Assembly: GCF_023684405.1 (NCBI RefSeq)
Contig: NZ_JAGSOI010000022.1
Span: forward strand, 1 to 36,672
Direction: 5' to 3'
Length of the DNA: 36,672 nucleotides
Origin: Methanococcoides seepicolus
Lineage (GTDB): Archaea; Halobacteriota; Methanosarcinia; Methanosarcinales; Methanosarcinaceae
Below the pieces are notes generated by a model, which did not search any database, was not told the DNA's origin, and saw nothing but the letters and a program-made list of their open reading frames with translations. The number at the start of each line of letters is the position of its first letter. The first letter of the stretch is position 1. The position numbers and the translations under genes are program-made. Shown here piece after piece: positions 14,870-22,146 of this stretch.

Positions 14870-14899
14870 ATGGATACTTTTGTCTTTTTGGGGGTTATT

Positions 14900-16576
14900 A
14901 TGAAAAGATATAACAAACCTGTATTTTGTTCAGAAATATTATGTTTTCGATCAATACAAAATATCAATACAGTAAAATCTCTTTCAATAAATGTATTTTG
15001 TATTATTCTTATATTGTTGGCTTTATCCACTACGGCAAGTGCGAATGACTACTATGTTGCCACGTGGGGTGACGATGCTCACACAGGTCTAACGCACGAA
15101 CAATCTGTAAGGTCCCTGGATCATGCTCTATCCTTAATGGGTACAGGTGATACTTTATACATGTCTGACGGAACCTGGTATGGAGAAGTATTGGATTTTG
15201 TGGGGCATGATCTGGGGGGCACGTCTGGCAATCCTGTAACAGTAAAAGCATATGATGGAAACCCAACCCTAAGCAACGGTCCCTCGCAAGCAAATATGAT
15301 CGATACATCTTATCAAGACTGGATTACGATAAATGGGATAACTGTTACCAACGGTTATCAAGGGTATCATGCTGCATGGAATAGTCACCTTGTTATCCAA
15401 AATAGTACTTTTTCGAACATGCGTATGGATGGAATTAATTTCTGGAGGCAGGTAAGTGATACCTTAGTAGAGAATACTGTTGTTACCAATTGTGGTGAAC
15501 ATGGCATTCACTATTATAACCAGTTGGATGAAGAGATAATGTATAACCATGTTATCAGGAACAATGATATCTCTAACTCTGGCCATAATCTGATCGATCT
15601 TCATACAAGGATAAGTAATGTAATAGTTGAGAACAATGAACTCTATTTCACATATGATTATTCAGGTCTGGAACAGGTTGGACTCTATTTACATAATGGT
15701 GATACTGACAACATAACAATACGCAACAACTACTTCCATGATCAGCCAAGACCTCTGGAAATTTTTAACTCAGAAGATGTCGTTATAGAATATAACAAAT
15801 TCGAGGATATAAGTGGTAGGGCATTAATGTTGTCCTCATTTAGCGACGAATCTTATGAAAAGAATGCTCGTGTTTTCAATATATATTTTAGAAACAATGT
15901 TATAGACAATGCTGACTATGGTGTCATGTTCTGGGGTGAGGATTCGATATACCAGAATATCTACTTTATCAATAATACTTTATTGAATATAGGATATTCT
16001 GATTTCTATATCCATAGTGGTACTTTTAAAAATCCAATAATACTTGAAGATAATTTGCCACGTGAGCAAAGTAAAACATTCACGTTCCGCGTTTATCCGA
16101 GTGAGGCTATCTCTTTAATTGATTCTTCCAATGCCATTATGGTCAGTGATGATGAATCTATTACCGTATGTGACGTTGATGCTTCATCGATCAAGGTTGA
16201 ATCTATTGATGCCTATTTGACCATAAACACGTATCCGATATATGCCCATCCGACTACGGGGCATGTGAATGTAGAAGTGTACAAATATGATACATCTCTT
16301 CCACAAGGCGAGATCCTCGTGGATTTCACTGCTAAATCAACCGATGGGGGGAGTGTGGTGTTTACTGTTGATGACCTGCAACCAAATCACTGTTATGACA
16401 TCAAAATGGATGGTGTTGATCTTACTTCAAAACAGGCAGATCCTTCGGGTCAGATCCAGTTCACAAGTTCAGAGTGGTCAAGGGAACATTCTTTCTCTGT
16501 ACAAGAAACTACCTATTCCTCATATTTTTCAACGACCGCCGATGCTGGCTCAGACAGTTATATCGTTCTTGGCTAG
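14900..16576 (+). CDS. Secreted right-handed beta-helix protein, copy 1, ending at an in-frame TAG
   Basis: A 558-residue exported protein. I use ATG 14900 because a GGGGG site (14890-14894) lies 5 nt before it; an ATG at 14870 in frame lacks one. Residues ~30-48 form a signal peptide ending TTASA. DYYVATWGDDAHTGL followed by SLDHALSLMGTGDTLYMSDGTW is the usual opening of pectate-lyase-like beta-helix proteins, and repeats such as NNDISNSGHN and IRNNYFHDQPRP run to ~380. A fibronectin-like segment follows (~420-525). The frame stops at TAG 16574-16576, exactly where the next gene has the Glu of GETISFDGS, the start of a PKD domain. It is a close tandem copy of the next gene but lacks the Ig-like, CBM9 and dockerin parts. 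Truncation or TAG read-through are both possible. Confidence 0.75.
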   Translation: MKRYNKPVFCSEILCFRSIQNINTVKSLSINVFCIILILLALSTTASANDYYVATWGDDAHTGLTHEQSVRSLDHALSLMGTGDTLYMSDGTWYGEVLDFVGHDLGGTSGNPVTVKAYDGNPTLSNGPSQANMIDTSYQDWITINGITVTNGYQGYHAAWNSHLVIQNSTFSNMRMDGINFWRQVSDTLVENTVVTNCGEHGIHYYNQLDEEIMYNHVIRNNDISNSGHNLIDLHTRISNVIVENNELYFTYDYSGLEQVGLYLHNGDTDNITIRNNYFHDQPRPLEIFNSEDVVIEYNKFEDISGRALMLSSFSDESYEKNARVFNIYFRNNVIDNADYGVMFWGEDSIYQNIYFINNTLLNIGYSDFYIHSGTFKNPIILEDNLPREQSKTFTFRVYPSEAISLIDSSNAIMVSDDESITVCDVDASSIKVESIDAYLTINTYPIYAHPTTGHVNVEVYKYDTSLPQGEILVDFTAKSTDGGSVVFTVDDLQPNHCYDIKMDGVDLTSKQADPSGQIQFTSSEWSREHSFSVQETTYSSYFSTTADAGSDSYIVLG

Positions 16577-16920: not shown

Positions 16921-19900
16921 ATGATGGATCTCAAAAACGAAATTTATTCCGAGAAAACAAAACATAGCTTTTTACAAGGCACGAAGAATTCTAGATATTT
17001 TTTACGAAATATCCTTTATGCAGTTTGTATCCTATTAGCTTTGTCCGGTACAGCAAGTGCAACTGACTACTATGTTGCTACTTGGGGTGATGACGCACAC
17101 ACAGGTCTAACCCACGAACAATCTGTAAGATCCCTGGATCATGCTCTATCCTTAATGGGTGCAGGTGATACCTTATACATGTCTGACGGAACCTGGTCAG
17201 GAGAAATATTGGATTTTTGGGCACACGGTCTGCAGGGTACACCTGGCAATCCTGTTACGGTGAAAGCATACGACGGAAACCCAACTATGAGCAACGGTCC
17301 CTCAGGAGTAGCTATGATCAAGACATCTTATCAAGACTGGATTACGATAGATGGAATAACTGTTACCAACGGTTATACAGGTTATCTTGCTGAACATAAT
17401 AGCCACCTTGTTATCAGAAATTCTAAGTTTTCGAACATGGATCTTGAGGGAATTGATTTCCGGACACATACAAGTGATACCTTAGTAGAAAATAATGTTA
17501 TTACCAATTGTGTTGAACATGGGATTCATTATTTTAATCAGATGGGTACAGAGATAATGTATAATCATGTTATCAGGAACAATGATATCTCTAACTCTGG
17601 CCATAATCTGCTCGACATTCATACAAGAATAAATGATGTAATAGTTGAAGACAATGAACTCTATTTCACATCTGATTATTCAGGTCCGAAACAGGTTGGG
17701 TTATATCTTCATAATGGTGATACTGACAACATAATAATACGCAACAACTATTTCCATGATCAGCCAAGACCTCTGGAAATTTTTAATTCAGAAGATGTCG
17801 TTATAGAATATAACAAATTCGAGGATATAAATGGCAGAGCATTAATGTTGTCCTCATTTAACGACGCAAATTATGACAAGAATGCTCGTGTTTACAATAT
17901 ATATTTTAGAAATAACGTCATAGAAAATGTTGACTATGGTGTCCTGTTCTGGGGCGAGGAGTCAATATATCAGAATATCTACATTACCAATAATACTTTA
18001 TCGAATGTCAGAAATTATGATTTCTGGATATATAGTGGTACTTTTAAAAATCCAATAATAATTGGAGACAATTTGCCACGTGAGCAAAGCAAAACATTCC
18101 TGTTCCGCGTTTACCCAATTGGTGCTATTTCTGTAGTAGATTCGTCCAATGCCATTATGGTCAGTGATGACGAATCTATTACCGTATCTAACGTTGATGC
18201 TTCATCGATCAAGGTTGAATCTAGTGATAGGTATTTGACCGTAAACACGTATCCGATGTATGCCCATCCGACTACGGGACCTGTAAATGTAGAAGTGAAC
18301 AAATATGATACATCTCTTCCACAGGGCGAGACTCTCGTAGATTTCACTGCCGAATCAACCGATGGAGAGAATGTGGTGTTCACTGTTGGTGACCTGCAAC
18401 CAAACCGCTATTATAACATCAAAATGGACGGTGTTGACTTTACTTCAAAACAGGCGGATTCTTCGGGTCAGATCAAGTTTACAAGTTCAGAGTGGTCTGT
18501 ACATTCTTTCTCTGTAGAAGAGGCTTCGTCAGCGCCATCGAATCTCTCACCAACTGCCAATGCTGGTTCTGGTATGACAGTTGTTATTGGTGAAACCATA
18601 TCTTTTGATGGTTCGGGTTCAACAGACGACAAGGGCATTGTTTCCCATGCATGGGATTTCGATGCTTCTAACGGAATCCAGAAAGATGCGACAGGTACTG
18701 TTGTGCAGCATTCCTATGATGCCGCAGGTACATATACAGTAACCCTTACTGTAGAAGATACTGATGGCAAAACAGACTCTGATACTGTCACTGTAACAGT
18801 AACAACAACAGTAAGTGAGGTTAACCATGCACCCGTCATCATCGCATTCAAACCAGTAAGCGGTGCAGTCTTTGATGAAGGAGATTCCATCTCCCTCGAT
18901 GTAACAGCATCCGATGCAGATGGGGATGCATTGAGTTACACCATCCTGATCGATGGCGTCATCCGCAGCACCTCTTCTAACTATGTCTGGAACACTGACA
19001 ACACAAGTGCAGGTACTCATAGGATCGAAGCAATTGTAAGTGACGGTCTCGATCAGGTAACGTCCATTCGTACCATTACGATCAATGACGAACCTATCAT
19101 CATCGAGGCACTTGACATAGTGCAGGGGACTGCTACTGTCGACGGTGATCTGAGCGACTGGCAGGACGTGACCGGTATCACTCTAACGGCGTCGACCAGC
19201 AGAGATCCTAATGAAGACAATACCGCTGTGATAAAGGCAAAACATGATGACAATTACTTGTACCTTGTCTTTGATGTAACTGACACGAACCTTCAGGCTT
19301 CCGGTCAGGATGAGGTTAGCCATATCTATCTAGATGACAGTGTCGAGATATTTCTTGACACACAGCACGATAATGGCGGTGTGATGCAGGCAGATGACTA
19401 TCACTTTATCATTAACCTGAACGGTGCTGTAATTGATGAAGTGGGTACTGGTGGCGGCAAGGATCTCTCGTATGCCAGTAGCATAATGACAGGCATAACT
19501 TTGCTGGGTAGCAATGGTGACGAAAGTGACACGGATACTGGTTACGTGATCGAAGTCGCGATTCCCTGGAGCGATATTGGCGGGAAACCTTCGAATGATG
19601 CTGTCGGCTTGAACGTTGGAATAAACGATCGGGATAATGGGTTTGATGGACGTCAGTATTTTGACTCGTGCAGTCTGACAGGCTCAACCAATGATGTGCC
19701 TAACAACTGGGGTGATGCGATCATTGTAGCTACGGACAACATAGCACCTGTTGCACATCCACGTTGGGATGTGAATAAGGATGGTGTGGTGAATATTCTG
19801 GATATTACCCTGGTGAGTCAGAATATGGGCAGTCAAAATTTAGATGCTGTCTGGGACGTAAACCAGGATGATGAAGTAAACATCCAGGATCTTACCCTCG

Positions 19901-19932
19901 TAGCACATCACTTCGGTGAAACAGTAGAATGA
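16921..19932 (+). CDS. Secreted multidomain beta-helix / PKD / CBM9-like / dockerin protein
   Basis: A 1003-residue exported protein. The ATG at 16921 follows an AAGGGA site; ATG 16924 is an alternative. Domains in order: signal peptide to ~47 (ending TASA); right-handed beta-helix ~48-390; fibronectin-like segment ~415-532; PKD domain ~543-628; Ig/cadherin-like domain ~636-722; CBM9/DOMON-like carbohydrate-binding module ~730-938 (starts ATVDGDLSDWQDV, contains DDSVEIFLDTQHD and GYVIEVAIPWSDIG); and a type I dockerin 947-1003. The dockerin has two Ca-binding repeats, WDVNKDGVVNILDITLV and WDVNQDDEVNIQDLTLV, with Asp/Asn at loop positions 1, 3, 5, 9 and 12. The dockerin should plug into a cohesin, and two cohesin proteins are encoded just downstream. 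No catalytic residues of a lyase or hydrolase are identifiable, so it may bind rather than cleave glycans. Confidence 0.88.
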   Translation: MMDLKNEIYSEKTKHSFLQGTKNSRYFLRNILYAVCILLALSGTASATDYYVATWGDDAHTGLTHEQSVRSLDHALSLMGAGDTLYMSDGTWSGEILDFWAHGLQGTPGNPVTVKAYDGNPTMSNGPSGVAMIKTSYQDWITIDGITVTNGYTGYLAEHNSHLVIRNSKFSNMDLEGIDFRTHTSDTLVENNVITNCVEHGIHYFNQMGTEIMYNHVIRNNDISNSGHNLLDIHTRINDVIVEDNELYFTSDYSGPKQVGLYLHNGDTDNIIIRNNYFHDQPRPLEIFNSEDVVIEYNKFEDINGRALMLSSFNDANYDKNARVYNIYFRNNVIENVDYGVLFWGEESIYQNIYITNNTLSNVRNYDFWIYSGTFKNPIIIGDNLPREQSKTFLFRVYPIGAISVVDSSNAIMVSDDESITVSNVDASSIKVESSDRYLTVNTYPMYAHPTTGPVNVEVNKYDTSLPQGETLVDFTAESTDGENVVFTVGDLQPNRYYNIKMDGVDFTSKQADSSGQIKFTSSEWSVHSFSVEEASSAPSNLSPTANAGSGMTVVIGETISFDGSGSTDDKGIVSHAWDFDASNGIQKDATGTVVQHSYDAAGTYTVTLTVEDTDGKTDSDTVTVTVTTTVSEVNHAPVIIAFKPVSGAVFDEGDSISLDVTASDADGDALSYTILIDGVIRSTSSNYVWNTDNTSAGTHRIEAIVSDGLDQVTSIRTITINDEPIIIEALDIVQGTATVDGDLSDWQDVTGITLTASTSRDPNEDNTAVIKAKHDDNYLYLVFDVTDTNLQASGQDEVSHIYLDDSVEIFLDTQHDNGGVMQADDYHFIINLNGAVIDEVGTGGGKDLSYASSIMTGITLLGSNGDESDTDTGYVIEVAIPWSDIGGKPSNDAVGLNVGINDRDNGFDGRQYFDSCSLTGSTNDVPNNWGDAIIVATDNIAPVAHPRWDVNKDGVVNILDITLVSQNMGSQNLDAVWDVNQDDEVNIQDLTLVAHHFGETVE

Positions 19933-20274: not shown

Positions 20275-20931
20275 ATGTTTAGCATAAAAAACGTATTCAT
20301 GGTAGTTTTTATAATCACATTGTTTGCAGCTCTTAGCAATGTTTCTGCAGCTGCTTCCGATGTAGTTTTAAAACCATCATCACAGGTTGTTGCACCTGGA
20401 GAAACTTTCACAATTGATATATTCGTTTCTCCAGATGTTGATATTGCAGGAATGCAATTTGATCTACTTTACGATGGTTCTAAGTTCCAGATCACAGATG
20501 TGAGCGAAGGCAACTTGTTCAAACAAAGTGGTATGGGGACATTTTTTGTTGCTGGTTCTGTAAATTCGGGTCAAATCAATGATGCATACGGTTGTATTCT
20601 CGGTGCGTCAGATACCTCAACACCAGCAACTTTTGCCAGCATCACACTAACAACAGATGAACAGGCAAGTGGGAAATCTGACCTAGTCCTAAAAGATGTC
20701 ATAATCAGTGACCCAACTGGTAATGCTGTGGATCTCGAAATAATAAACACAGAGGTTATCATTCTGGTCTTCGATATCAATCAGGATCATATGGTTGACT
20801 ATAGTGATTATGGCCTAGTTCAGCAGCATTTCGATGAAACCACTGCATATCCTTATCCACTATGGGATGTGAATCAGGATAATATTGTAAATGTTCTAGA
20901 TATGATGTTGGTCCTATCGCATATGGATTAA
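20275..20931 (+). CDS. Small secreted cohesin-dockerin protein
   Basis: A 218-residue exported protein. ATG 20275 is chosen for the AGGGGA site 4 nt upstream and because the signal peptide starts here (hydrophobic 8-24, ending VSAAAS). Residues ~28-163 form a cohesin module: VLKPSSQVVAPGETFTIDIF, IAGMQFDLLYDGSKFQI and the late strand SDLVLKDVIISDPTGNAV are characteristic. Residues ~165-218 form a dockerin with two calcium loops, FDINQDHMVDYSDYGLV and WDVNQDNIVNVLDMMLV. Having receptor and ligand modules on one small polypeptide makes it an adaptor between the dockerin-bearing beta-helix protein and the anchored cohesin protein, or a self-polymerising unit. The stop is 18 nt before the conserved reading frame of the next gene. 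Confidence 0.88.
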   Translation: MFSIKNVFMVVFIITLFAALSNVSAAASDVVLKPSSQVVAPGETFTIDIFVSPDVDIAGMQFDLLYDGSKFQITDVSEGNLFKQSGMGTFFVAGSVNSGQINDAYGCILGASDTSTPATFASITLTTDEQASGKSDLVLKDVIISDPTGNAVDLEIINTEVIILVFDINQDHMVDYSDYGLVQQHFDETTAYPYPLWDVNQDNIVNVLDMMLVLSHMD

Positions 20932-20949: not shown

Positions 20950-22146
20950 ATAAGAAAATATATTTTCATCTCTGGAAAAAGTATATTTTATTCCCTCCTC
21001 CTTTTTTATCTATTTGCAATTATCTGCCTTAGTGGAATTGCCAGTGCCACTACCGAAATCAGCATCATACCCACATATCAATCAGTAGAAGAAGGGCAGA
21101 ACTTTACTGTGAACATCTATTTGCAGCCAGACCTTCCGGTTGCTGGTATGCAGTTCGATCTATCTTATGACAGTAAATTGGTCGAGGTGGTTCAGGTCTC
21201 AGAAGGTGAATTCTTAAGACAGGATGGTGCACTTGTCTGGTTCAATCCCGGTGAGGTCGATAGTTCAAATGGAAAAATTGATTCTGTATATGGTTTGATA
21301 TTGGACAAGACAAGTGTCACAGGACCGGAAGTTTTTGCCATTATCCAAATGACCGCTGGCAATGGATCTGGTACAAGTTCTTTGGAACTATCTAACGTTG
21401 TGGTTAGTGATAATCAAGGGCTGATCATCCCGATTGATGTTGTTAATGGAGCAATTACTATCGCATCTGGTACATCTCCTTCCAATATATCCACAACCCT
21501 TGATAGACGCAGTGATGAGTCCAATTATGGAGTTGCTGGAATTGGTACAACAAGTGGATCATATGAGGAAGTTGAGATAGTAGAAAAATCCAGCCAATCG
21601 GTTCACCTTGGCTCTCAAATTTCCTACCAGTTCGTTGAGCATGAAAATCCTATTACATATATTAGCTATAGATCTCTCACAAACGCCGGTAATGTCATAG
21701 CAACTGTTGAAGTCCTTAAGCAAACATCTACAATTGCCTCATCTCCCCCTCCCGGGATAGTCTACAAGAATTTGAATATATGGATGGGGAAACCCGGTTA
21801 TGCCATAGAAAGTAATATACAGGATGCAGTTGTTGGTTTCAAGGTAAATAGATCATGGCTTGAAGGTAATCATATCTCAGATAGTTCTATAATGATGTAC
21901 CGTTATGATCCGGGCACATGGGAGCCTCTTTCAACAAAGAAGATTAGTGAGAGCAGTAGTTATGTTGTCTTTGAAGCAGAGACTTCTGTTTTTTCACCAT
22001 TTGCGATCGTCGGAGTTAGCTCAGATAATATAATTGAAATGACAGGGGTTGATGATGCTCCTGCAGAGAATGAAAGCCTTGATCAGAATGCAGCCTTTAT
22101 TCTGTGTCTGTCGATGTTGGTGCTGCTATTTGCTAGAAGACGATAA
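20950..22146 (+). CDS. Membrane-anchored cohesin protein with PGF-pre-PGF domain and C-terminal sorting-like tail
   Basis: The frame from 20950 encodes about 398 residues: a signal peptide (hydrophobic ~15-29, ending GIASA); a cohesin module ~33-173 (VEEGQNFTVNIYLQPD, VAGMQFDLSYDSKL, SSLELSNVVVSDNQG); a PGF-pre-PGF domain ~215-357 (VGFKVNRSWLEGNHISD, WEPLST, FSPFAIVGVS); an acidic linker; and the tail AFILCLSMLVLLFARRR. The PGF-pre-PGF domain is known from archaeal surface proteins processed by archaeosortases, but PGF itself is absent here. No ATG, GTG or TTG precedes the signal peptide: TGA closes the frame at 20938, so translation must begin at ATA 20950, CTG 20947 or ATT 20944, near a GAGGGA site (20938-20943). 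The first standard start, GTG 21109, would delete the signal peptide and part of the cohesin. Likely the cell-surface anchor of the cohesin-dockerin set. Confidence 0.8.
   Translation: MRKYIFISGKSIFYSLLLFYLFAIICLSGIASATTEISIIPTYQSVEEGQNFTVNIYLQPDLPVAGMQFDLSYDSKLVEVVQVSEGEFLRQDGALVWFNPGEVDSSNGKIDSVYGLILDKTSVTGPEVFAIIQMTAGNGSGTSSLELSNVVVSDNQGLIIPIDVVNGAITIASGTSPSNISTTLDRRSDESNYGVAGIGTTSGSYEEVEIVEKSSQSVHLGSQISYQFVEHENPITYISYRSLTNAGNVIATVEVLKQTSTIASSPPPGIVYKNLNIWMGKPGYAIESNIQDAVVGFKVNRSWLEGNHISDSSIMMYRYDPGTWEPLSTKKISESSSYVVFEAETSVFSPFAIVGVSSDNIIEMTGVDDAPAENESLDQNAAFILCLSMLVLLFARRR

Follow-up and report, generated by a model that had tools for sequence, protein, structure and literature searches.

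A 218-aa protein with one cohesin and one dockerin (CohDoc), encoded by the ORF at 20275-20931 (+) of a Methanococcoides genome, is probably a secreted monovalent adaptor joining a surface protein to a membrane anchor, with its partners assigned by sequence comparison. This reading was favored by a conserved gene pair of CohDoc and an anchored cohesin, by decay of the CohDoc dockerin in genomes missing that anchored cohesin, and by the asymmetry of the two dockerin repeats. Positions refer to the window, i.e., the whole 36,672-nt stretch of DNA that was analyzed; the domains of CohDoc and of its anchor and client genes all lie on the forward (+) strand.

The CohDoc protein begins with a signal peptide (20275-20349; residues ~1-25), a hydrophobic, fast-evolving N-terminus (median dN/dS 0.48) with the end ...NVSAA. 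The cohesin domain, Coh1 (20350-20763; residues 26-163), matched the Pfam model Cohesin PF00963 (E=8e-11, 42.7 bits; curated cut-off 24.1) and had a cohesin fold in AlphaFold2. A three-residue linker, LVF (20764-20772; residues 164-166, read from the translation), connected Coh1 to the dockerin, Doc1 (20773-20928; residues 167-218), which also passed its curated cut-off (Dockerin_1 PF00404; E=2e-5, 25.1 bits; cut-off 22.9). These two matches and the short link agreed with the original prediction that a cohesin and then a dockerin fill the 218-residue protein. The Doc1 calcium loops were DINQDHMVDYSD (20773-20808) and DVNQDNIVNVLD (20866-20901); both contained D or N at positions 1, 3, 5, 9, and 12, as expected of type I dockerins (PF00404), and both were unbroken in 8/8 orthologs. 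With one cohesin, one dockerin and no enzyme domain, the secreted protein has the architecture of the ScaC type. Matches to peridinin proteins (phmmer) were rejected as chance, as no domain was shared.

The Coh1-Doc1-Coh2 read-through, in which the two genes share one frame, was modeled with AlphaFold2. The cohesin parts were well formed (pLDDT mostly 60-90), the three-domain model had a pTM of 0.45, and the dockerin was unfolded (few sequences in the alignment). The modeled cohesins resembled solved cohesins, and their best single-domain fold match was Archaeoglobus fulgidus 2xdh (Foldseek; E=5.6e-11, target TM 0.78), a match to be read as belonging to a cohesin of the model, since the query contained Coh1 and Coh2 together. 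The best PDB sequence-profile match was the ScaC cohesin 5lxv (1.4e-5). When Doc1 was modeled alone, two helices were placed (pLDDT 61) and the top matches were dockerins, at a weak E=0.19; Doc1 is assigned as a dockerin on its sequence. Comparison of the dockerin-facing sheets between cohesin classes, made to predict pairing, singled out no pairing.

Full-length CohDoc orthologs were found in seven further Methanococcoides genomes at 71-94% identity. Median dN/dS across the eight orthologs was 0.13 for Coh1, 0.09 for Doc1, and 0.25 for Coh2, values that point to purifying selection on both Coh1 and Doc1. Given the seven full-length orthologs and the low median dN/dS, the CohDoc architecture is no chance arrangement. 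Within Coh1, the dockerin-facing sheet was conserved above the other sheet (0.86 vs 0.73, p=0.02). An intact CohDoc gene followed by an anchored cohesin, with a gap of ~18-24 nt, occurred in 8/11 Methanococcoides genomes. Outside Methanococcoides, the pair was also present in G105 and G003, which represent two further genera of the family, and in G248 and G352, from another family of the order. In G105 an in-frame TAA separates the cohesin from the dockerin (L057 5029-5541), and in G003 an additional membrane-tailed cohesin sits between CohDoc and the anchored cohesin.

In the window, the Coh2-anchor gene (20950-22146; ~398 aa) begins 18 nt past the CohDoc stop. Its product matched both Cohesin (Pfam, 1.3e-10) and PGF_pre_PGF (TIGR04213, 1.3e-51). 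The cohesin, Coh2, was located at 21043-21465 by Pfam and grouped among anchored cohesins in the tree described below. The PGF-pre-PGF domain (21559-22014; TIGR04213, residues 204-355) is followed by a C-terminal membrane segment and RRR, and the protein ends in AAFILCLSMLVLLFARRR. The ORF is open from 20941. The start codon position, 20950-20952, reads ATA in the window and in G023 and ATG in six relatives; the earliest ATG, GTG, or TTG of the window ORF is a GTG at 21109, within the cohesin.

Upstream of CohDoc lies the candidate client, a secreted beta-helix protein of 1003 aa (16921-19932) comprised of a right-handed beta-helix, PKD, Ig-like, CBM9, and dockerin domains (Pfam). The terminal dockerin, DocB (19768-19929; Dockerin_1, 8.2e-9), has near-symmetric repeats with the calcium loops DVNKDGVVNILD and DVNQDDEVNIQD. 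Each of the eight Methanococcoides genomes with an intact CohDoc encoded a cohesin-free protein of ~1000-1160 aa that bears a strong DocB-type dockerin; it was the upstream neighbor in the window and in G023, and was located elsewhere in the genome in the other six. A shortened paralog of the beta-helix protein, which stops at the start of the PKD domain and has neither CBM9 nor dockerin, was seen at 14870-16576.

A tree built from 83 cohesin domains contained one group of large-client cohesins (99/97) and one of small cohesins that included Coh1 (100/99). The anchored cohesins, including Coh2, fell outside these two groups, in several clades. C-termini varied within the small-cohesin clade: Doc1-type or symmetric dockerins, short amphipathic-looking helices, PKD/CBM-like modules, and a dockerin-like EF-hand module. 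Many of its members, close relatives of Coh1, had no dockerin. This variety fits a protein whose working end would be a client-binding cohesin and whose tail would be an interchangeable attachment.

The dockerin repeats were compared at positions 10, 11, 14, 17, and 18, the usual contacts in type I complexes. The two Doc1 repeats were identical at none of the five contact positions (0/5) in 8/8 orthologs; the contacts of repeat 2, VLMLS, were invariant across the eight and those of repeat 1 were variable. The two DocB repeats were identical at 2-3/5 contact positions (2/5, by eye, for the DocB of the window) and retained IL.T / IQ.T, also in other genera. The difference between the CohDoc dockerin loops and those of the beta-helix dockerin, remarked on in the original prediction, therefore held, and it held genus-wide. 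Given these repeat differences, Doc1 and DocB probably have different partners. In Ruminococcus flavefaciens, unlike dockerin repeats accompany a single binding mode (PMC5429695).

In total, the genome encoded five cohesins, on five different proteins, and two dockerins (on CohDoc and the beta-helix protein) over the Pfam cut-offs. The hallmarks of a cellulosome were absent from this genome, as neither a multi-cohesin scaffoldin nor dockerin-bearing carbohydrate-degrading enzymes were present. Pfam searches of two minimal genomes, G021 and G018, gave three cohesins and just two dockerins that exceeded the cut-off, DocB and Doc1. A second anchored cohesin with a PGF-pre-PGF domain, AnchorB, was present in most of these Methanococcoides genomes. 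The AnchorB gene of the window's own genome (L012 4284-5521; contig C137) had a frameshift inside the cohesin, which could be due to sequencing error, and was intact in relatives. Another contig of this genome (C67) encoded a small cohesin (L010 398-1102) with the end DENKNCMIDIGE...LIDLYRTGKPYC, a dockerin-like EF-hand module not reported by Pfam's dockerin model. Other small cohesins ended in an aromatic tail (WWDGWNDLWQDDWRHFW; L068 5374-6006 and L069 5780-6421) or in C-terminal short amphipathic-looking helices (L060 and L061). Methanogens of a related genus encoded scaffoldin-like proteins in which three or more cohesins stand in tandem (G058:C1:495748-497025 and G041:C1:441903-443183).

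In two sister genomes, G016 and G017, Doc1 was eroded and the Coh2 gene was missing; downstream out-of-frame remnants of Doc1 persist in G016. The client of both genomes bears its own cohesin and dockerin. Coh1 remained constrained after the erosion of Doc1 (dN/dS 0.22, G016 vs G017). Since both losses fell on one branch of the Coh1 tree, they were counted as a single event, and probably are one. G022 was dropped as a third independent Doc1/Coh2 loss, the flanking helicase gene also being missing from its assembly. The pattern of loss reads as Doc1 going with Coh2, and as Coh1 having a role independent of Doc1.

As a monovalent adaptor, CohDoc would dock in calcium, through Doc1, onto Coh2 of the adjoining membrane-anchored protein, and Coh1 would then supply a second docking site for a dockerin-bearing surface protein. 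The simplest client of Coh1 would be the beta-helix/CBM9 protein, bound via DocB, giving the order anchor-Coh2 <- Doc1-Coh1 <- DocB-beta-helix. Either dockerin, Doc1 or DocB, could be accepted by AnchorB instead. Also counting against the adaptor are the missing ATG, GTG, or TTG at the conserved Coh2 start in the window and G023, the probably single event of Doc1/Coh2 loss, and the cohesin-face comparison that pointed to no pairing. Of the two readings in the original prediction, a one-step extension of the anchor and a self-assembling fiber, the extension was favored by the pairing with an anchored cohesin, the decay of Doc1 where that cohesin is absent, and the selection on Coh1 without Doc1; the fiber is less likely.

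In a fiber, Doc1 would bind Coh1 of another copy, forming head-to-tail chains perhaps started on Coh2, which appears unlikely. Receptor and ligand do sit on one chain; the three-residue linker makes intramolecular Doc1-Coh1 binding unlikely, so any self-binding would be between molecules. A precedent for such cross-recognition comes from Archaeoglobus fulgidus, where, in the 2011 work of Voronov-Goldman, a single dockerin reportedly recognizes both cohesins, including the one within the same chain. In 12 related genomes (G007, G008, G009, G017, G038, G039, G042, G043, G045, G062, G082, and G083) the only Pfam dockerin (E<=1e-3) sits on a cohesin-bearing protein, a count that could shift with weaker or unrecognized dockerins. 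However, Coh1 is maintained by selection after Doc1 loss, near relatives of Coh1 exist with no dockerin, and the gene keeps an anchored-cohesin neighbor in more than one genus and also in another family, a pairing for which a homopolymer would have no need. Self-polymerization of CohDoc is thus possible but less likely, and it cannot be the sole role of Coh1. Such head-to-tail chains seem more plausible in related genera, for the large clients that bear both a cohesin and a dockerin and whose genomes yielded no dockerin besides the client's own. A wider proposal, in which large surface proteins of this kind in the archaeal family, and perhaps CohDoc, polymerize on an anchored cohesin while small cohesins terminate or divert the chain, is similarly doubtful.

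The adaptor reading was also weighed against a parallel display, in which Doc1 and DocB would each bind anchored cohesins directly and Coh1 would be an outward receptor for another dockerin-like module or cell. Two anchored cohesins per genome (Coh2 and AnchorB) are usual, and four genomes (G006, G007, G008, and G096) have a DocB-type client and an anchored cohesin at the locus with no CohDoc, so DocB evidently can be anchored without it. In the minimal genomes G021 and G018, however, two dockerins and three cohesins would deprive Coh1 of such a partner, and the parallel display is quite unlikely. As sequence alone cannot show binding, the pair might instead be vestigial, a non-binding cohesin and dockerin maintained for another reason; the intact calcium loops of the eight orthologs, the better conserved dockerin-facing sheet of Coh1, and a dN/dS of ~0.1 all count against this, making it highly improbable.

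What cohesins and dockerins do in archaea not known as cellulose degraders has been a standing question since Archaeoglobus (1999). The genus Methanococcoides includes cultured species and provides a minimal case: with the two Pfam dockerins and three cohesins of G021 and G018, six pairs would cover the wiring. The clients of sister genera that bear both a cohesin and a dockerin make natural self-polymerization directly testable there.

Cohesin-dockerin connectors are a kind already known, and CohDoc is one more of them. In Ruminococcus flavefaciens, the ScaC cohesin accepts one class of dockerins, and the ScaC dockerin, which has a single binding mode, attaches to other scaffoldins (PMC5429695); ScaC-type adaptors are generally monovalent (PMC4959524). 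By analogy, the favored view is that CohDoc would work like ScaC, as a monovalent adaptor scaffoldin. ScaC is bacterial and belongs to a cellulosome with carbohydrate-degrading enzymes, whereas CohDoc has no evident enzyme client. ANME scaffoldin-like proteins carry one dockerin and up to five cohesins per chain, with pairings unknown (PMC9012536). These proteins are archaeal and, like CohDoc, combine a dockerin with cohesins on one chain, but have several cohesins where CohDoc has one. The nearest archaeal precedent is AF2375/AF2376, a non-cellulosomal, neighboring pair that is archaeal like CohDoc/Coh2 and similarly arranged. In Archaeoglobus fulgidus, ORF2375 carries a cohesin in addition to its dockerin. 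Residues 432-506 of ORF2375 form the dockerin, and its binding to the cohesin of ORF2376, the neighbor by number, is reported to be strong and specific (PMC9705933). ORF2375 is at least 506 aa long, whereas CohDoc has 218 aa and two modules only; in addition, a second, different dockerin is present here on the beta-helix protein, and the neighboring cohesin is on a PGF-pre-PGF anchor.
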